Below, piece after piece: positions 11,392-24,218 of a stretch of DNA of 26,622 nucleotides. Within the stretch, counting starts at the first letter, position 1; every line of letters begins with the position of its first letter. Source of the DNA: a virus; IMG/VR virus record IMGVR_UViG_3300044591_001056, positions 1-26,622 of that record; one strand, given 5' to 3'. The notes under the pieces are model-generated. The model saw only the letters and a list, made by a program, of their open reading frames with translations, ran no database searches and was not told the origin of the DNA. The position numbers and the translations under genes were made by a program.

Positions 11392-13794
11392 TTAGTTTAT
11401 ACCACCTATACCGTATATTTGAATGTTATTTTTTCGATGAGAACTCATCATAAATGCAGGAAAATCTTCAACATCTCTTATAGCATTCATTCTAGTTCCA
11501 GAAGATTCTGTAGATTGTTTTACTACTGGAGGTAATGTAATAACATTAGATTTAGATCTTCCACTTGGTGGTTCTGGAATATATTGTTTAATATTTGGTC
11601 GTATATTAATATTTCTTTTTCTAAGATCAACTAGGGTATCACCAACACCACTTATCATTGTCATTGCATTATTAATAAATGGTACAATGAAAGGCATTTT
11701 TTGTGATAATGGTCTAAATGATTGTAAAGCAGCGTCTTTTATAGAAACTGAATTTATGTCATTAGATATTTGTAAATTAGAAGGTTTATTATTTGGTTGT
11801 GTTCTTGGAGGTTTGAGTGAAAATGGTTTAATAGAAGGTGCCTTTTGACTTGATTTTTTGTTCGCAGTTGGTACATTTTGTAAAGTATCTGAGGTATCAC
11901 CAAACATTTTTGTTGGAGTTGTCAATTTTTTATTTTGATCCAAAGAACTTGCAACATTCACAACATTATTAAGACTCATCATGGATTTTTTATTAGCAAC
12001 CTCAGGATTAAAAACAGATTTCTTGGCAGCCGCAGATGGTTTTTCTGGAACTAATGCCCCAACCATTCCACCACCAGCAGCCAATTGAATATTATTCACC
12101 ATTTTAGGAACGTTAGTTCCTCCACCAGACTTGTTTAATCCTAAGAAGAAGTTTGCCCCATACTTATCAACTGCTGGTTTAGAGATAACAATCTCTCCAG
12201 GTTGAGCAGCAATCAACTGAGTATCTTTCCCAGCTCCAGCAATTCTAACACCAGTATCATCTGTGATAGTACCACCACTTTCAAATCCAATATTTTTAAT
12301 TGGAGTAGGTTTCTGATAATCCCCAAATTTAGGGATCAATCCACCACCTCTAAACATATTAAATCCACGACTCTGTATTTGCTCTTGTGATAATTGTGCA
12401 GCACCTGGTCCTTTACCAGTTTTTGCAGTTTCTTGAGGTAATACTGTAGATGGATCAGATTTTTTATTTTCTTTTCTTGTTTTATCAACTTGTTGTGTAG
12501 ATGCATAAGCACCAACTCCAGCAGCAATACTACCACCAATAAGAGCTGCTGTAACAGGATTTGCTTTTACAAAGTTGAGTAATTTTGGAATTGCAAATTT
12601 ACTCAGTTTAAATGTTAATTTGGTAACTGTTCCGATGATAGATCTAACAAATCCACCTAAAGGAGTTGCAAATAATAAAAATGCTCCTAGTAATGCAGGC
12701 CACCAATCACCAATAAATCTAACTAAAGTATCAATTTTCTTTTTATTTTTTTTATCCGATATCCAATCTATAAATTTGACCATTAAACGGCCAAGCAAAG
12801 TCCAAACAATAAAATTAATTATTTTGTCAAGAATACTTTGGAATGGTGCTAAGACTTTTGATGCTAATGTTTTTAACTTGTTATCTCTTTTCTCTAAGTC
12901 TTCTTCCCTTTTACCCCTTTTTAAATTTTCACCAATTTTTCTTTGATTCTCTGCATCTTTTTGAATCAATTTATTTTGAGATGCAAGAAGAGAGGCAATA
13001 GAAATTATAGAATTTTTTATTGCTTCAATATCTTTTTTTATTGAACTCCCAATATTTGCAGATTCTTTAGAAACATCAGGTACAGAAACTTTTCCAGCAA
13101 GAAAATATTGCTGTTTAGATACTCTTATTGGACCAGTTGTTCCAATATTATCTGCATTTATTTTTTTACTTCTTACTTTAAATCTACCAACCTTTCCCTT
13201 TACTCTTTTAAATTCATCTTGCAATAATATCTGTTCTTCTCTGGGGATTTTTTTATCCCCCATACTTATTGTTACTAATTTTTCTTTTAGAAGACTTAAA
13301 TAAGTACCATAATCAATATCAAAAATATCTTGTATCCCAAGTATTTTTAATATTCTTTCATCAATTTCCTCATTAACTAAGTCTTCTTCTTTAGTACCTT
13401 CATATAAAGTTAATGCACCAGAAGGATCTAGAACATTACTTTTAGATTGTTCTTTAGGTGGAACTTCTTTTGGTATTTTTGTCTTTTTACTTTTATCATT
13501 TACATAGTAATTCCACAAAAATAAAATATACTGGTCACGTAAACTAAAATCTTTATTGGATTGTGGATTTTGTACAGACTCAATTGGTGCTGGATAATCC
13601 TTATCAGACGCCAAATATGCGTTAATAAAAGTATCTGCTACTTTATCTGCCTTCACACCAAAGTTATTTTCAATTAAATACTTGCTCACTTCCATTCGTT
13701 GAGCAAGTATTTTTTTATATTGCCCAGTTCTACTCGCTACAATAGTAGATATTGGCCAAAATTTATCTATAAACTTTGGTTTATTAGCCGACAT
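11392..13794 (-). CDS. Tail tape-measure protein candidate, 800 aa
   Basis: This gene follows the gp26 chaperone and its frameshift ORF, the canonical place of a tape-measure gene. The N-terminal 300 residues are charged and helical. Hydrophobic helices lie at about 321-343 (FIVWTLLGRLMVKFIDWI), 361-395 (WWPALLGAFLLF) and 411-432 (AALIGGSIAAGVGAYAS), as expected for a protein that is released into the host membrane. At about 533-555 is GEIVISKPAVDKYGANFFLGLN-like sequence, a motif seen in phage tape measures. The C-terminus is low-complexity, rich in Lys, Pro and Ser. Its start overlaps the 55-aa ORF by 11 bp. Equivalent in role to T4 gp29 (590 aa) by position; direct sequence similarity is not evident. 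Confidence 0.65.
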   Translation of the reverse strand: MSANKPKFIDKFWPISTIVASRTGQYKKILAQRMEVSKYLIENNFGVKADKVADTFINAYLASDKDYPAPIESVQNPQSNKDFSLRDQYILFLWNYYVNDKSKKTKIPKEVPPKEQSKSNVLDPSGALTLYEGTKEEDLVNEEIDERILKILGIQDIFDIDYGTYLSLLKEKLVTISMGDKKIPREEQILLQDEFKRVKGKVGRFKVRSKKINADNIGTTGPIRVSKQQYFLAGKVSVPDVSKESANIGSSIKKDIEAIKNSIISIASLLASQNKLIQKDAENQRKIGENLKRGKREEDLEKRDNKLKTLASKVLAPFQSILDKIINFIVWTLLGRLMVKFIDWISDKKNKKKIDTLVRFIGDWWPALLGAFLLFATPLGGFVRSIIGTVTKLTFKLSKFAIPKLLNFVKANPVTAALIGGSIAAGVGAYASTQQVDKTRKENKKSDPSTVLPQETAKTGKGPGAAQLSQEQIQSRGFNMFRGGGLIPKFGDYQKPTPIKNIGFESGGTITDDTGVRIAGAGKDTQLIAAQPGEIVISKPAVDKYGANFFLGLNKSGGGTNVPKMVNNIQLAAGGGMVGALVPEKPSAAAKKSVFNPEVANKKSMMSLNNVVNVASSLDQNKKLTTPTKMFGDTSDTLQNVPTANKKSSQKAPSIKPFSLKPPRTQPNNKPSNLQISNDINSVSIKDAALQSFRPLSQKMPFIVPFINNAMTMISGVGDTLVDLRKRNINIRPNIKQYIPEPPSGRSKSNVITLPPVVKQSTESSGTRMNAIRDVEDFPAFMMSSHRKNNIQIYGIGGIN

Positions 13795-18153: not shown

Positions 18154-20493
18154 ATGGCATTCTATTTTAGAAACGTACCCGATTTTGAATATGTAAGTAG
18201 ATTTCCAGGAAAGAGAAATCTTAATGACTATGTTCCTGTAAAGAATTTATTTAAAAGAGGGAAGATAAGAGACGACATATTTGGTAACTTAAAATATTTT
18301 ACAAAATATAATATTATTGGAGATGAACGCCCAGATAATATCGCTAAAAAAATATACGATGATTCCACATTAGATTGGGTAGTTTTATTATCAAATAATA
18401 TATTGAATGTATATAATGAATGGCCAAAGACTCAATATGCCTTTGACAAATATCTTTTAGAAAAATATGGTTCTTATGAAAATATTTACTCAGGAATACA
18501 TCACTATGAGACCATAGAATATAAAACTTCAGATTCAATTACAATTGTCCCTTCTGGAACATTTGTAGATGAAGGATTTTATAACGCACCAGAATACACA
18601 ATAGAATTAAATAATGATATAGAATTACCAGAATCTATATCTGGAGAGCAGGCATTAGCATCATCAACAATAAGTAATTCAAGTATTATAAATCTCAATT
18701 TAATCTCTGCAGGAACTGCATACGATGAAAGTGTGCAGGTATATATTGAGAATCCTCCTCAAGGAAGAGTCGCAATTGCAACTGCAGTCTTATCAACAGT
18801 TTTAGGTGAGAGAGAAGTTGCTTCAGTCTCAATTGTAGACTTTGGTAGAGGATATACTTATCAACCATTAGTATCTTTTACTCCTCCACCACCAACCATA
18901 CCACCCGAATTTAACGTCACTATTGGTGCTGCAGGAACAGTAACCTCAGTTTCTATAGGCAATTCTGGAGAAGGATATACATTTTTACCTATATTAGAGT
19001 TTTCTTATCCAGAAGATATTATTAGTAATGCTATATTCTTAGGTGAAATGCCTTCACAAACTATCAATACTGGTCTTGAAGGTATGTACATCTCTCCAGA
19101 TGGAGACAGAATGTATACTGCCCATGGAGCGTCTGGTTATACTCAAGGAAGAATAGAACAATATACACTATCATCACCATGGGATATTACTACTGCATCT
19201 TATGTTGGAACATATAATTTAACCACTGGTGTAGCATTTACATATGCAACTGGTGTAGAATTTAGTCCAGATGGAACAAGAATGTATGTTTCTGGACTAA
19301 CATCAAGTGGATATAAAATTGCCCAATATACTTTAGGAAATCCTTGGTTATTAACATCTGTAATTTATAAATCCAGCGTATCAGTATCAACCCCAGCTGG
19401 TGTAAGATTCCAAGATAATGGAAGATCTCTGTTTATTCTAGATGGAGAATCTCCAGATACAATTAGAAAATATTCATTATCTGTTGCATGGGATATTACG
19501 ACATTATCACCGATACAAGTATCATCATTAAATATATCAGCAATAACCAATGATTTTAATATTTTAGGATTCAATTTTAATGATACTGGTAAAGATTTAT
19601 TTGTTGGTGGTTCAAATACAGTATATGCATTTTCTTTAACTACTGCTTGGGATATTAGAACTGCATCTCTAGTAACAAGTTTAGATTTTTCTTCAAAAGA
19701 TACATTACCTCAAGATGTTTTTATAAATTCTGCAAGAACTAGATTAATAATTTCTGGATCTTCAACTAGAAAAGCATATGGATATAATATTGACTTACAA
19801 GCAAGAGGATATGTAACACTAAGTGGAGAAAATATAGGTAGTTTTGTACTAACCAATCCAGGTGGAGGATATTCTGAACCACCAACAATTTCAATACAAC
19901 CACCAATTCCAGCAAGAACAACTCAAGGATATGCCCTTTATGCGGATGGAAAGGTAAATCAAATAGTAATTACGGATCCAGGATATAATTATAGACAACC
20001 ACCTCAAGTCACAATACAAGCACCATTAGATCCAATTCCAGCTTCTGGAAGAGCACTAGTTGAAGATGGGGTAATCATTGATTTAATACTTACAAATACT
20101 GGAAGAGGATATGAAACAGCACCACAAGTAACAATTAGTCCTCCTGGAAATATATACGAACCACAAGTAGATGAATTATTTGAAATTAATGGTCAAATAT
20201 GGAAGTATAATGGATTTAACTGGTACAGAAAAATATCAGACGGAGTTCAATATTATGATAGAAAGGAACAAAAAGTTATAGAAATTGAAGGTGATAAAGT
20301 ATCAAAACCAGTAACAAACTATGATTATGAGATAGAGTTAGAAGAGAAAAAAAGATCAATCTATGTTTTAAAATCAGATTATTTAAGTATAGTATTTGAC
20401 GATATTGAAAATATCATGACATATAAAAAAGGTTCTGAACAATATTTGTCCAGAACCCTTAAGAGAGGTGATAACCCTAGATATTACGATTAA
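18154..20493 (+). CDS. 53: Baseplate wedge protein gp53 with large beta-propeller-like insertion, 779 aa
   Basis: Residues 1-125 are canonical gp53: FKRGKIRDDIFGNLKYFTKY, GDERPDNIAKKIYDDS, DWVVLLSNNILN, the LysM-like part of the wedge. The gp53 C-terminus returns at about 674-779 (NYDYEIELEEKKRSIYVLK). T4 gp53 has only 196 aa, so about 540 residues are inserted. The insertion has GxGYxxxP repeats near residues 229 and 270; a propeller-like region at about 310-540, with repeats of SPDG-x-RMY and QYTL-x-x-PWDITTAS; then three more GxGYxxxP units near 569, 608 and 648. The repeats suggest a surface-exposed, possibly receptor- or glycan-binding module on the wedge. The minus-strand gp32 terminator lies inside its 3' end, and its stop abuts the gp32 stop. 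Confidence 0.85.
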   Translation: MAFYFRNVPDFEYVSRFPGKRNLNDYVPVKNLFKRGKIRDDIFGNLKYFTKYNIIGDERPDNIAKKIYDDSTLDWVVLLSNNILNVYNEWPKTQYAFDKYLLEKYGSYENIYSGIHHYETIEYKTSDSITIVPSGTFVDEGFYNAPEYTIELNNDIELPESISGEQALASSTISNSSIINLNLISAGTAYDESVQVYIENPPQGRVAIATAVLSTVLGEREVASVSIVDFGRGYTYQPLVSFTPPPPTIPPEFNVTIGAAGTVTSVSIGNSGEGYTFLPILEFSYPEDIISNAIFLGEMPSQTINTGLEGMYISPDGDRMYTAHGASGYTQGRIEQYTLSSPWDITTASYVGTYNLTTGVAFTYATGVEFSPDGTRMYVSGLTSSGYKIAQYTLGNPWLLTSVIYKSSVSVSTPAGVRFQDNGRSLFILDGESPDTIRKYSLSVAWDITTLSPIQVSSLNISAITNDFNILGFNFNDTGKDLFVGGSNTVYAFSLTTAWDIRTASLVTSLDFSSKDTLPQDVFINSARTRLIISGSSTRKAYGYNIDLQARGYVTLSGENIGSFVLTNPGGGYSEPPTISIQPPIPARTTQGYALYADGKVNQIVITDPGYNYRQPPQVTIQAPLDPIPASGRALVEDGVIIDLILTNTGRGYETAPQVTISPPGNIYEPQVDELFEINGQIWKYNGFNWYRKISDGVQYYDRKEQKVIEIEGDKVSKPVTNYDYEIELEEKKRSIYVLKSDYLSIVFDDIENIMTYKKGSEQYLSRTLKRGDNPRYYD
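20423..20457 (-). terminator. Intrinsic terminator of gene 32, inside the 3' end of gene 53
   Basis: Minus strand: GGTTCTGGACA and TGTTCAGAACC form an 11-bp stem with one G-U pair and a 5-nt AATAT loop, followed by TTTTTTATAT. This is a strong Rho-independent terminator, about 37 nt past the gene 32 stop. On the plus strand the stem is followed by CTTAAG, not a T run, so it acts in one direction only. Confidence 0.85.
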
Positions 20494-21459
20494 TCAACTT
20501 TCTGCAAGTTTTTGAAAGTAACTCATAGCATCATCATCCTCATCTTCACCGTAAGATGAACTAGAAGAACTAGAAGAACTAGAAGAAAGAGAACTTAGTT
20601 GAGAACTAAGGTCTTCGGGAAGTTCGGAAGTCTGACGACGAGATTCAAAGTTAGGAGTATAAGAACCGCGAGAGTTGTCTTCATCATCAACCTCTTCATC
20701 AACAGGACGTTGAGCAGCAGATTTTTGACCAAGGACATACTTAAGACGCTTTTCAAGTTCTTCGTATGTTTTAAATTCGGTCGGAGCAATCAATTGATTA
20801 AGGGAATATTCCTTTTTCCAAATTGCTTCCATTGCTTCATCATCATTCAGAAGAGGTTCTGGGCGATCAAACTCAGACTTATCATAGTTCCAGTAACCAT
20901 CAACCTTACGGATTTTCAACTTAAAGTTTGCACCTTGCCAAAAATCAAAGGGGTTGATAGGGGTCTCATCTTCAAATTCAGGTTGCATTGCTGCCATAAT
21001 CTTATCAAAGATTTTTTTACCATACTTGAAGAGAAATACTTTACCTTCATTGGCGGGATTTGCAGGATCCTTAACTACGTAAATGTTAGAGTAGTAAGAT
21101 AGTTTACGCTTTTGCTTACGAACAGTTTCTTTATCTTTGTCACTACCACTGTTCCACAATTCACGATTGTATTCAGAAACTGGATCCTTTTGTCCAATAG
21201 TAGTGAGCGAGTTTTCAATATACCATCCACCAGGACCTTGAAATCCATGGGCATACATTTTTACCCACGGAAGATCTTCACTTTCAGGAGAAGGTAGGAA
21301 TCGAACAACTGCGTACCCATTACCAGTCTTATCCATCTCTGGTTTCCAGAGACGATCATCAGCACCATTAGAAGATGTATTCATCTTCTCCATCTCTTTA
21401 ACAAGTTTTTGTGTAAGAGAACCAAGAGAAGATTGTTTTTTAAGATCAGAAAAAGACAT
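20494..21459 (-). CDS. 32: Single-stranded DNA binding protein gp32, 321 aa
   Basis: Clear gp32: the N-terminal basic self-association region (SFSDLKKQSSLGSLTQKLVKE), DRLWKPEMDKTGNGYAVVRFLPS, FQGPGGWYIENSLTTIG, KLSYYSNIYVVKDPANP and KYGKKIFDKI. It covers ssDNA in replication and recombination. The zinc-binding Cys of T4 gp32 are absent: there is no Cys in the whole protein. The C-terminus has a poly-Ser linker and an acidic tail (GEDEDDDAMSYFQKLAES), which in T4 recruits partner proteins such as gp59. RBS GAGG lies 8 nt before the ATG. It has its own promoter, a structured leader and a terminator, as fits autoregulated high expression. Confidence 0.95.
   Translation of the reverse strand: MSFSDLKKQSSLGSLTQKLVKEMEKMNTSSNGADDRLWKPEMDKTGNGYAVVRFLPSPESEDLPWVKMYAHGFQGPGGWYIENSLTTIGQKDPVSEYNRELWNSGSDKDKETVRKQKRKLSYYSNIYVVKDPANPANEGKVFLFKYGKKIFDKIMAAMQPEFEDETPINPFDFWQGANFKLKIRKVDGYWNYDKSEFDRPEPLLNDDEAMEAIWKKEYSLNQLIAPTEFKTYEELEKRLKYVLGQKSAAQRPVDEEVDDEDNSRGSYTPNFESRRQTSELPEDLSSQLSSLSSSSSSSSSSSYGEDEDDDAMSYFQKLAES
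20558..20584. repeat. 9-bp tandem repeat encoding the gp32 Ser linker (3 copies)
   Basis: Three perfect copies of gaactagaa (plus strand) encode alternating TCT and AGT Ser codons in the linker before the acidic tail of gp32. Copy number could change by slippage without breaking the frame, which would change linker length. Confidence 0.8.
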
Positions 21460-21495
21460 TAGATTACCTCAGATTAAGTTAGATTTGGCCTTTGG

Positions 21496-21524
21496 GTGCC
21501 CGTTAGGGCATCTGCGGTGGGCAC
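21496..21524 (-). promoter_or_regulatory. Structured 5' leader of gene 32 (possible autoregulatory operator)
   Basis: The leader predicted to start near 21524 opens with GTGCCC, which pairs with GGGCAC (21496-21501) over 6 bp around a 17-nt loop. A competing hairpin TGCCC-TAAC-GGGCA (21497-21510) uses the same 3' arm. T4 gp32 represses its own translation by binding an unstructured leader nucleated at a 5' pseudoknot. A similar role is inferred here. Confidence 0.55.
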
Positions 21525-21548
21525 TAAACCAATATATTGCAGATGCCC
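21506..21548. repeat. 10-bp inverted repeat spanning the gene 32 promoter
   Basis: Arms gggcatctgc (21506-21515) and gcagatgccc (21539-21548) are perfect inverted repeats, 23 bp apart. One arm lies in the -35/-10 spacer and the other in the leader, flanking the start site. It may be a DNA operator. Confidence 0.7.
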
Positions 21549-21559
21549 GTCCATGTCAA
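21531..21559 (-). promoter_or_regulatory. Sigma70-type promoter of gene 32
   Basis: Minus strand: TTGACA (21554-21559), a 17-bp spacer, TATATT (21531-21536). The -35 overlaps the last codons of the DUF1825-like gene, giving gene 32 expression independent of the upstream operon. Confidence 0.85.
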
Positions 21560-21897
21560 GTGTTTTCAAATTTACCAATTTGTTCTTTCATTTTTTCAAT
21601 CAAAGTTTGCATATTAGTGAAGATCACATTCATATCAACATTTGCTGGTAGTCCCATCATAACAGCAGACTTTGATATATTTTCTTTCATCTTTTTTGCT
21701 TCTGGATCATCAGATAAAGATAATCTGGTATATAAGACTTTTTGTTTATCCAATAACCTTTGAAGTAAATCAACATGTTGCATTTTACCTTTATGATCCA
21801 TTTGGTAAAATTTAAAAACACTATTATAAAGATCTTCTTGTAGTTCAGAAATTTCTACCATCTCTGCACGAACTACATCTGATTCAAAAAAACTCAT
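21556..21897 (-). CDS. DUF1825-like protein, 113 aa, between gp59 and gp32
   Basis: The sequence MSFFESDVVRAEMVEISELQ, then KQKVLYTRLSLSDDPEAKKM and MMGLPANVDMNVIF resembles DUF1825, a family of small helical proteins found in cyanobacteria and their phages; function unknown. I chose ATG at 21897 because AAGGAG lies 8 nt upstream and the ATG overlaps the gp59 stop (ATGA); a GTG start nine bases earlier would cut into the spacing. It is all-helical with an acidic, Met-rich surface. In T4, gene 59 directly precedes 32, so this gene is an insertion. A replication or recombination role is suggested by context only. Confidence 0.65.
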   Translation of the reverse strand: MSFFESDVVRAEMVEISELQEDLYNSVFKFYQMDHKGKMQHVDLLQRLLDKQKVLYTRLSLSDDPEAKKMKENISKSAVMMGLPANVDMNVIFTNMQTLIEKMKEQIGKFENT

Positions 21898-22484
21898 AAT
21901 ACACACTCCTTTAAAATTTTTCTATACTTAAATATATCAATATTTAGAAACGAAGAATATTTTTTTATCCTAGCAGATATAAATTTCCACACAGGATCAT
22001 TTAATTTCTTATCAAAAACTTTTACAAATCCAAAAATTTTATCAAGTATAATAAAAGTTTCTAAGGAGATATTATTTTGCAAATGTTGCTTTAATATTTG
22101 TGGATGAGATGATCCTTCTACAAAAAACATCTCATCAAAATTATTTTTATTAAATATATTACTTACCTGTTCTTTAAAATGATATGAAAGGGATTGTTTC
22201 TTTTTTTCCCAATCAACGTATCTAGTTTCACCTTCTCTAATTATTTCTCCAATCCATAACGATTGAGGATCATCACAAGAAACAAAATTGGCAACAAAAA
22301 AATTTATAACTTCCTGATCACTCTTTTGTCTAGATAATTTTTCAAACCAATATCTATCCTTCCTTTTATAGAAGGATTGTAGCGTAGCTCTACTTTTACC
22401 ACAATACTTATGATAGTCGTAACTATCTTTAGTAAAGTGATTTTTTAAAGCAAGATATGTTTTATAAACATCAAAAGGTGTCAT
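21894..22484 (-). CDS. 59: DNA helicase loader gp59, 196 aa
   Basis: Matches T4 gp59 in length (217 aa) and pattern: an N-terminal YKTYLALKNHF, then KRKDRYWFEKLSRQK, the SLWIGEIIREGE segment, and QNNISLETFIILDKIFGF followed by WKFISARIKKYSSFLNID. The protein is all-helical and basic. In T4 it binds gp32-coated fork DNA and loads the gp41 helicase, so its neighbourhood with gp32 is functional. It follows gene 33 by 15 bp without a clear ribosome site, and its stop overlaps the start of the DUF1825-like gene. Confidence 0.88.
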   Translation of the reverse strand: MTPFDVYKTYLALKNHFTKDSYDYHKYCGKSRATLQSFYKRKDRYWFEKLSRQKSDQEVINFFVANFVSCDDPQSLWIGEIIREGETRYVDWEKKKQSLSYHFKEQVSNIFNKNNFDEMFFVEGSSHPQILKQHLQNNISLETFIILDKIFGFVKVFDKKLNDPVWKFISARIKKYSSFLNIDIFKYRKILKECVL

Positions 22485-22499
22485 AATATAAATTAAAAA

Positions 22500-22790
22500 T
22501 TAAAAAATTAACTTAGCCCTGGAAGTTCTTTTTAAGAAATTAAGTTCCATTGCATCATACTTAATTTTTTCTTTTAATGGTTTAGATATAAGTTTAGGAA
22601 CAGATTCTAAATCAATACTATTTTTATCACAAAAATGAATAATAGCATCAATATAATTCATATCATTATTATGATGAACTAATGCTTCAATTTCTTGTGC
22701 GAATTTAGTAGGACAGAAAAACTTATTTTCTAATACTTTTTCAAATTCTTTTTGTTCTAAATTACTTTTTGTTTGTTTATCAGGTTTCAT
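22500..22790 (-). CDS. 33: Late transcription coactivator gp33-like, 96 aa
   Basis: The segment FAQEIEALVHHNNDMNYIDA, then IIHFCDKNSIDLESVPKLIS and LKEKIKYDAMELNFLK aligns in order and spacing with T4 gp33 (112 aa), which binds the RNA polymerase flap and, through its hydrophobic C-terminal end, the gp45 clamp. Here the C-terminus is RAKLIF, a plausible clamp-binding tail. The start at ATG 22790 is preferred over the earlier ATG at 22895: it overlaps the nuclease stop by only 11 bp, while the longer version would overlap by 116 bp. A weak GGGA lies upstream. gp33 would act with a gp55-type sigma factor on the TATAAATA promoters seen in this window. Confidence 0.8.
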   Translation of the reverse strand: MKPDKQTKSNLEQKEFEKVLENKFFCPTKFAQEIEALVHHNNDMNYIDAIIHFCDKNSIDLESVPKLISKPLKEKIKYDAMELNFLKRTSRAKLIF

Positions 22791-23460
22791 ATGTTCCCAA
22801 TTTGTATTGAACAAACTCTCTAATATACTGTATGAGTAGTTTGATGTATTTTTCTTTGTCGTATTCTTCATAAACAACACATTCTCCATTTTCACAAGAC
22901 ATAATGATTACCAATTTTTTAACGGTAATTCCAGTTAACTCATAAAGCATACATGCATATGCTACACATTGAACAAAATAGTGTTCAATCCATTCTCTAG
23001 GTTTAGGTTTTTTTGAGGTTTTAAAATCAATTATTGCCAATTCTCCATTAAATTCAGCAATACAATCTACTGTTCCCGCAACACCTAATACTTTACTGTA
23101 AAGAGAAGACTCTAGAGCATGAATATTATTTATCTTATTTAATTCTGGTTTAGCAATTTTAAATAAGAAATCAGATAAAGGTTGAACTTTAGGAAGTTCT
23201 TGATCGTTAATCAAATAATGTTCAACTAAAGTGTGCATATCAGTCCCGCGACTGGTTGCCTGCTTAGTAATTTTATCCGCCTTTTCTTCACCAATTTTTT
23301 TACGCCAGTTAGCAAAGAACTGGCGATTTTTATGACTGGTAACTGAAGTGATAGAAAATAATTTTAAAAGTTCATTTCCATCAGGTATTTTATAATAACG
23401 AACACCATCTATATTCTCCCGTTCTAATTTGGGGAGATCCAATTCAATATGTTTAAACAT
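22780..23460 (-). CDS. PD-(D/E)XK superfamily nuclease (RecB/Cas4-like exonuclease), 226 aa
   Basis: Motifs in order: RGTDMHTLVEHYL (His76, the RecB-type His motif), E117, TVDCIAEFNG with D132, AIIDFKTSKK with D145 and K147, and QCVAYACMLY (Q164, Y168, the QxxxY motif). Together they form a complete RecB-like active site, predicted to need a divalent metal. Length suits single-domain phage exonucleases. It is coupled to phoH (TAATG overlap at 23460) and to gene 33. It likely trims host or phage DNA during recombination or degradation; the exact substrate is unknown. There are no Cys clusters for an Fe-S centre, unlike typical Cas4. Confidence 0.8.
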   Translation of the reverse strand: MFKHIELDLPKLERENIDGVRYYKIPDGNELLKLFSITSVTSHKNRQFFANWRKKIGEEKADKITKQATSRGTDMHTLVEHYLINDQELPKVQPLSDFLFKIAKPELNKINNIHALESSLYSKVLGVAGTVDCIAEFNGELAIIDFKTSKKPKPREWIEHYFVQCVAYACMLYELTGITVKKLVIIMSCENGECVVYEEYDKEKYIKLLIQYIREFVQYKLGTYET

Positions 23461-24218
23461 TAAAATCCTAACTCAGTTTTTGCAATAATATATTCTTTAC
23501 ACAGACCTGAACGAACAATATCCTCTACACCAAATTCAATGATGTCAAAAGAAGGCATTACTCGTAAAATCTTCATAAAATCAATAATACCATTACGCTC
23601 ATTTGTTTTTACAAGATCCGATTGAGTCGCATCTCCACAAAAACAAATTTTTGTATTTTCACCAACACGAGTAATTATACTATCAAGTTCATGAAAATTC
23701 AAGTTTTGAAATTCATCAACTATAATAATGGCATTATCTAATGTAGTTCCTCGAAGAAATGATGTTGACCAAAAACTTATAGTTCCTTGTGTCTTTAAGT
23801 TGCCATATAACATCTCAAATTCAGTATCACTTGGAAGTTGGAACATGTATTTAACCATGTTCTTATAAGGAATTTGATACAGAGAAGATTTATCTTCATG
23901 ATCTCCAGGAAGAAATCCAATTTCTCTGGTAGCAACTAATGAACGAACGATGTATATCTTTTCATAAGGAGAATGTTCTTTTAAAACATCTTTCAATGCA
24001 TTATACAAAGTGATAAATGTTTTACCAGTTCCAGCAGCACCATATGCCACAAGATTTTTACTTTCACTATATGAAGAGAATAATTTTTTTTGATTCTCTG
24101 TTAAAGGATCAATATCTAAAAGTAATTCCGTATTAACAGGTTTTTTTCTTTTCATTTGTTTTGCAGTCATACCAACACCTATTGGTTGATGCTCATCAGT
24201 TCTTCTTCTTCTTGCCAT
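23460..24218 (-). CDS. phoH: PhoH-like P-loop ATPase, 252 aa
   Basis: Walker A GAAGTGKT (residues 60-67), an IVRSLVATREIGFLPGD segment, Walker B NAIIIVDEFQNL (about 162-173) and FCGDATQSDL are all PhoH features. The N-terminus (1-35) is basic. PhoH proteins are widespread in marine phages, often regarded as phosphate-stress related, though the function in infection is unresolved (RNA- or nucleotide-linked ATPase/helicase activity is discussed). It is translationally coupled to both neighbours by TAATG overlaps. No Pho box is seen nearby. Confidence 0.93.
   Translation of the reverse strand: MARRRRTDEHQPIGVGMTAKQMKRKKPVNTELLLDIDPLTENQKKLFSSYSESKNLVAYGAAGTGKTFITLYNALKDVLKEHSPYEKIYIVRSLVATREIGFLPGDHEDKSSLYQIPYKNMVKYMFQLPSDTEFEMLYGNLKTQGTISFWSTSFLRGTTLDNAIIIVDEFQNLNFHELDSIITRVGENTKICFCGDATQSDLVKTNERNGIIDFMKILRVMPSFDIIEFGVEDIVRSGLCKEYIIAKTELGF

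Follow-up and report, generated by a model that had tools for sequence, protein, structure and literature searches.

The DNA analysed in the current work, referred to below as the window, is the whole 26,622-nucleotide sequence of a 26.6-kb uncultivated virus record, which carries a gene 32 region on its minus strand. On this strand the genes for PhoH, a PD-(D/E)XK nuclease, a gp33-like late coactivator, gp59, a DUF1825 protein and gp32 follow one another, and both gene order and gene content, as read from the sequence, are those of T4-like cyanophages. The part described here is the control region of gene 32 in such a phage, with promoter and inverted repeats at 21494-21559 on the minus strand, upstream of gp32. 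Along the minus strand its elements (Table 1) follow in the order TTGACA, arm A1 (GGGCATCTGC), TATATT, arm B1 (GTGCCC), arm A2 (GCAGATGCCC), TAAC, arm B2 (GGGCAC) and a box (CCAAAGGCCAAATC), which is followed by AATCT repeats, the first of these lying inside the box and GAGGT separating the second from the third, and then by the ATG. The TGA stop codon of the DUF1825 gene overlaps the -35 box.

Table 1. Coordinates of the genes and control elements at the gene 32 locus of the window.
Feature	Position	Strand	Basis
DUF1825 gene, directly upstream of gp32	21556..21906	-	Pfam PF08855, E 3.3e-12; ORF list
-35 box TTGACA	21554..21559	-	11 of 12 consensus positions (both boxes), 17-nt spacer
Arm A1 GGGCATCTGC, within promoter spacer, upstream of expected start	21539..21548	-	Sequence; covariation with A2
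-10 box TATATT	21531..21536	-	Promoter scoring; comparison across gp32 loci
Arm B1 GTGCCC, 7 nt past -10 box, approximately +1	21519..21524	-	Sequence; covariation with B2
Arm A2 GCAGATGCCC, in leader, pairs with A1	21506..21515	-	Sequence; covariation
Hairpin C TGCCC-TAAC-GGGCA	21510-21497	-	Sequence; conservation absent
Arm B2 GGGCAC, partner of B1 (helix B) or of the A2 end (hairpin C)	21496..21501	-	Covariation (helix B)
Conserved single-stranded box CCAAAGGCCAAATC (family form ACAMARGCCRAAT)	21482..21495	-	Comparison of core RRCCRAAT
Three AATCT repeats, exact 10-nt period	21461..21485 (21485-21481, 21475-21471, 21465-21461)	-	Sequence
Shine-Dalgarno-like GAGGT, between repeats 2 and 3	21466..21470	-	Sequence
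Gene 32, single-stranded-DNA-binding protein, 321 aa	20494..21459	-	Pfam gp32 PF08804, E 2.1e-49

Promoter and inverted repeats of the gene 32 leader

The first-pass annotation of this DNA had placed here a sigma70-type promoter (TTGACA-N17-TATATT), a perfect 10-bp inverted repeat with one arm in the promoter and the other in the leader, and a pairing of GTGCCC with GGGCAC, and all three were recovered where it had put them. The promoter is the top-scoring of 18 promoter-like sites in the region 20000-24000, for which 20.2 sites are expected by chance, and 406 of 408 gp32 loci have an upstream promoter of comparable score. Cyanomyoviruses are without the T4 middle-promoter factors (PMC2984593), and sigma70-like motifs occur ahead of early genes in S-PM2 and Syn9 (PMC2984593), which agrees with the sigma70-type gp32 promoter found here. 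The gp32 promoters of several other phages show features of their own. TAAATA motifs lie within the -35/-10 spacer in L363, L393, L213, L200 and L160; these motifs resemble the cyanophage late promoter NATAAATA and possibly represent overlapping early and late promoters. In L213, L160 and Syn9 (L446) an inverted repeat has its centre at the -10 box or directly behind it (for example ACTGCTATGATAGCAGT; in Syn9, TGCTAC...GTAGCA), and S-SCSM1 (L330) has an imperfect one.

Inverted repeat A of the window is a perfect 10-bp repeat with arms 23 nt apart, and helix B comprises the 6 bp of GTGCCC:GGGCAC. Of 3000 dinucleotide shuffles of the 116-nt region, 8 contained a perfect inverted repeat of at least 10 bp with a loop of 3-30, which makes A locally unusual, if modest when taken alone. 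The whole window contains ten such perfect repeats of at least 10 bp against 1.6 expected, mostly AT-rich, and the length of A by itself is therefore not decisive. The longest inverted repeat of the window, a perfect one of 13 bp with an 11-nt loop, is located at 13676-13712 (AAATACTTGCTCA). The folding energy of the leader RNA is ordinary (z -0.95). Judged from sequence comparison, the arrangement is real on the grounds of its conservation with compensatory changes, and not on those of repeat length or folding energy.

Covariation and mutual exclusion of helices A and B

A first pattern, in which only the -35 box, the A1 arm and parts of the -10 box were fixed, matched 72 viral contigs, in most of which the match is located before gp32 and a complementary A2 arm is present at equal distance. 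A looser pattern, which placed no constraint on four A pairs or on any part of B, retrieved 44 distinct sequences. Of these, 42 precede gp32 and show complementarity at the unconstrained pairs; L315 and L323 are neither before gp32 nor complementary. The trimmed set consisted of 40 distinct sequences with ten arm haplotypes, and in these 40 viral sequences A and B are found at fixed positions before gp32. The pattern behind most of the sequences prescribed five of the ten pairs of A, and the unconstrained pairs were handled separately in a whole-arm permutation analysis.

Helix A occurs in the forms GGGCATCTGC, GGGCACTTGC, GGGGACTTGC, GGCAATTGC and AGGCACTTGC, each with its own partner arm, and helix B as GTGCCC:GGGCAC, GTACTC:GGGTAC, GTACTC:GAGTAC, GTGTCC:GGACAC and GTATCC:GGATAC, the commonest of which (GUACUC:GGGUAC in RNA) contains GU. 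Over the ten arm haplotypes, 97% of the cells of A and 100% of those of B are paired. Compensatory changes in relatives, which the annotation had proposed as the check on its reading, were present in both helices: double changes affect 4 of the 10 pairs of A (7 double-change cells) and 3 of the 6 pairs of B (9 cells), that is 7 pairs for A and B together. The covariation score of 0.325 exceeds both the shuffle control (0.151, sd 0.026; 0 of 500) and the slid control (at most 0.089), as for a conserved structured RNA, and whole-arm permutations at least as good as the observed arms numbered 13 of 5000 for A and 2 of 5000 for B. Wobbles are of the sense-RNA kind only (2 GU and 0 AC in each helix). 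One such step in A, from G-U in L271/L278 to A-U in L309, separates near-identical phages. A is without internal mismatch in all 40 sequences, its wobble intermediates being located at the end pair.

On the gp32 protein tree the A haplotypes require 4 changes and the B haplotypes likewise 4, and this small number of independent haplotype switches, about four, is the chief limit on the covariation evidence. The window-type leader is found in two gp32 clades, and L320 bears the haplotype of another clade, as the result of either an exchange or one further change. Window-type arms were absent from the cultured isolates searched, in which the matches start past the A1 arm, and a search of Rfam with the window leader and 20 related loci returned zero matches at gathering score.

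In an H-type pseudoknot, a loop of 1-5 nt is unable to span a stem of 9-10 bp. Throughout the 40-sequence set the gap between A2 and B2 is only 1-5 nt, against 9-10 bp for A, and a single H-type pseudoknot made of full A and full B is therefore implausible and was discarded; a shortened A could be combined with B. For read-through RNA, the minimum-energy fold contained A, with B excluded, in 9 of the 10 sequences modelled, and in RNA starting at +1 B forms in 8 of the 10, the window and L005 favouring hairpin C, which is the lowest-energy fold of the window's +1 RNA. On spacing and predicted energies, full A and full B are mutually exclusive. Hairpin C had been put forward as the competitor of the GTGCCC/GGGCAC pairing; it is present in the window but shows no double change and is broken in the GTATCC and GTGTCC groups, and was dropped as a conserved switch partner.

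Considering that A1 lies upstream of the expected start site and is missing from the mRNA made by the gp32 promoter, A can exist in RNA only within read-through transcripts, and RNA from +1 is limited to B or C. Accordingly, of the proposed RNA switch or pseudoknot the covarying helices stand and the full A+B pseudoknot does not, and a switch would operate between two kinds of RNA, read-through and promoter-made, and not inside a single leader. B is taken as RNA because it begins at the predicted +1 and because its most frequent form accommodates GU. For A to act in RNA, its upstream arm requires read-through from DUF1825, which is likely given the compact co-directional gene order. The few wobbles that A contains are of the sense-RNA kind, and action of A in RNA has an edge, short of a decision, over action in DNA.

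Repeats and leader types among sister phages

Of 107 dissimilar gp32 leaders, 99 contain the core RRCCRAAT of the box and 48 the triple repeat. Beyond these leaders, two triple-repeat matches were obtained in 4.39 Mb of fetched sequence (both strands), both of them in gp32 leaders; within the 4.39 Mb compared, the triple repeat is specific to gp32 leaders. The spacing of successive AAT motifs in gp32 leaders is 9 or 10 nt in 104 of 177 cases, a period that could match the spacing of gp32 monomers, and the repeats within a leader resemble one another more than expected (0.42 versus 0.26, 0 of 2000 shuffles), a value from which relatedness was not removed. Most related gp32 leaders contain three AAUCY/AAUAC repeats at a 9-10 nt period. 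The parts of the window leader, their fixed geometry, the covariation of A and B and the repeats are established by sequence and comparison.

The leaders of 134 gp32 genes were sorted by simple patterns into window-type, 5' hairpin, H-type pseudoknot, short unstructured and other classes. The short class, with neither hairpin nor pseudoknot, accounts for 40 of the 134, and a 5' structure is therefore not indispensable. H-type pseudoknots with covarying stems S1 and S2 are present in sister clades at the same place after the gp32 promoter; in S2, 13 haplotypes are 100% paired with 18 double changes, and 0 of 5000 whole-arm permutations were as good. Leaders of this class were observed in L170, L163, L202, L441 and relatives (for example GAGGcugCCUgauCCUCuaccaagcuaaAGG), many with GGCU and AAGC motifs, and similar pseudoknots are readable in the cultured isolates RN05-S (L447) and RB11-B (L448). 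The pseudoknots of this class, among them those of the two isolates, share with the window their position after the gp32 promoter and the box and repeats downstream, and differ in consisting of two short coexisting stems with a loop of approximately 9-11 nt, where the window has a 6-bp hairpin and an excluded 10-bp alternative.

A different clade carries a perfect or near-perfect covarying inverted repeat of 8-10 bp which flanks the -35 box and spans the DUF1825 stop codon (for example AGGCTCAAGGG...CCCTTGAGCCT); it was observed in L399, L430, L339, L443, L368, L386, ACG-2014h (L329) and approximately 25 more. Over approximately 33 sequences this repeat, which lies entirely ahead of the start, shows 15 double changes, with 0 of 5000 permutations as good. 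The notion of a long inverted repeat common to all cyanophage gp32 promoters was rejected, only 23 of 107 dissimilar promoters having one of at least 7 bp and 10 of 107 having one at p 0.01; the repeat-bearing promoters belong mostly to two classes, the window type and the -35-flanking type, the others being at chance level. A further leader type, in L371, L379, L417, L382 and S-8S56 (L451), contains a long GTTGGGC...GACCCAAC hairpin, and most of its members also conserve an inner sequence close to AGCACAGTA...AGCGTAA. In RB11-B (L448) and S-SRM01 (L452), a homing-type nuclease gene, annotated as HNH or nuclease-associated modular domain 3, is located directly upstream of gp32, as is segG in T4.

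A candidate autogenous operator and its alternatives

Gene 32 of T4 is the textbook case of translational self-control. Its operator is composed of a pseudoknot at the 5' end of the mRNA and of UUAAA repeats (PMC535899, PMC3014915); the gene 32 message as processed by RNase E begins with the pseudoknot (PMC3014915). According to a review, the spread of this autoregulation among T4 relatives needs study, and the pseudoknot, which RB49 is without, may be the sole viral example serving autoregulation (PMC3014915). In the literature searched there was no paper on cyanophage gp32 leaders and none joining cyanophage, gene 32 and pseudoknot, an absence that does not by itself prove novelty.

The window resembles the operators of T4, T2 and RB69 in that a structured 5' leader element precedes the same gene (Pfam gp32, E 2.1e-49) and unstructured repeats overlap the ribosome-binding site. 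It differs from them in having a simple 5' hairpin, helix B, in place of a full H-type pseudoknot, and in that the repeats, AAUCU at a 10-nt period here and AAUCU/AAUCC/AAUAC at a 9-10 nt period across the cyanophages, are analogous and not identical to UUAAA/UAAA. Moreover, the structure starts at an internal promoter, inside which one alternative arm is located, whereas in T4 its 5' placement results from RNase E processing. The echo of T4 gp32 autoregulation with a different sequence, as first suggested, gains from the AAUCU repeats and the sister pseudoknots; the window itself has neither a full pseudoknot nor the UUAAA repeats of T4. By analogy, the window leader would work like the T4 operator, yet it lacks two of its defining structural features. 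Two competing helices whose full coexistence is impossible also recall attenuators and riboswitch-like switches; unlike in those, the choice would follow the start of transcription rather than a ligand, a ribosome or a terminator, and no U-run terminator follows the window helices.

The reading favoured here, to which we assign a probability of roughly one half, is that the region is an autogenous translational operator of gp32 that keeps the logic of T4 with a new anatomy. The internal sigma70-type promoter would give rise to a short mRNA which, from the promoter position, would start at B1, so that helix B would form a hairpin at its 5' terminus; next would come the unstructured box and the three AAUCU repeats, 10 nt apart, over the ribosome-binding site. 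Surplus gp32 would nucleate on or beside the 5' structure, then spread cooperatively over the repeats and shut off its own translation, as in T4. In transcripts reading through from the upstream PhoH, gp33, gp59 and DUF1825 genes, A1 would be present, A1:A2 would form and B would be excluded, so that the shape of the leader would be set by where transcription began and helix A would mark read-through messages. We infer the start at B1, the read-through, the binding and repression by gp32, and the action of A in RNA rather than DNA. The more specific proposal of a switch by transcript origin, in which the leader would pair with the promoter arm in read-through RNA but with its own 5' terminus in RNA made from the promoter, is a tentative one, judged less likely than not.

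Control at the DNA level through repeat A, also raised in the annotation, is possible: a protein would bind the arms around the -10 box and block the promoter, B being a separate RNA hairpin. The arms of A bracket the core promoter at a centre-to-centre distance of 32-33 bp, about three helical turns, the -35-flanking class mostly has 21-23 bp, about two turns, and the different covarying repeat of that clade lies wholly upstream of the start site. The paired motif, however, was present a single time in each of four phage records of 88-247 kb, which does not amount to a regulon and led to rejection of a phage-wide repressor operator with several sites; the arm sequences change while their complementarity stays, which would need a co-evolving protein, and the wobble intermediates of A are of the sense-RNA kind. 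Such an operator is regarded as a minority prospect. Somewhat less probable is a role in mRNA processing or stability instead of gp32 binding, with B as a protective 5'-terminal stem and A as the mark of the junction between upstream and gene 32 messages, which an RNase, for instance RNase E, would cut apart there. In T4, RNase E cleaves the gene 32 mRNAs at -71, immediately ahead of the pseudoknot, at a site conserved in five T4 relatives (PMC3014915), and the AU-rich -10 region lies within the loop of A, but processing leaves unexplained why repeats with a 10-nt period, specific to gp32 leaders, cover the ribosome-binding site.

That mutation rather than selection made the arms of A complementary appears improbable. 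The perfecting of imperfect palindromes by template switching is known in T4 and other systems, and would account for the freedom of A from internal mismatches; against it, the position and arm length of A are fixed relative to the promoter and gp32 in the 40 sequences while the intervening bases vary, B keeps its pairing with GU tolerated, and wobble intermediates are found at the end pair of A. A chance origin, in which short GC-rich repeats happen to fall in a short intergenic region, could draw on the ten perfect repeats in the window, but is refuted by the conserved geometry and the covariation controls and retains hardly any probability.

If the switch by transcript origin is true, the autogenous operator would be present only on gene 32 mRNA made from the promoter, and T4-like cyanophages would uncouple operon-derived from promoter-derived gp32 synthesis. 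The leaders compared in these phages place covarying 5' hairpins, H-type pseudoknots or the exclusive helices of the window before gp32-specific repeats, and so offer a large natural set, cultured isolates included, on which to test how gp32 recognises its own message. As read from these sequences, the comparison suggests that the logic of autoregulation may persist while the RNA anatomy that serves it is replaced.
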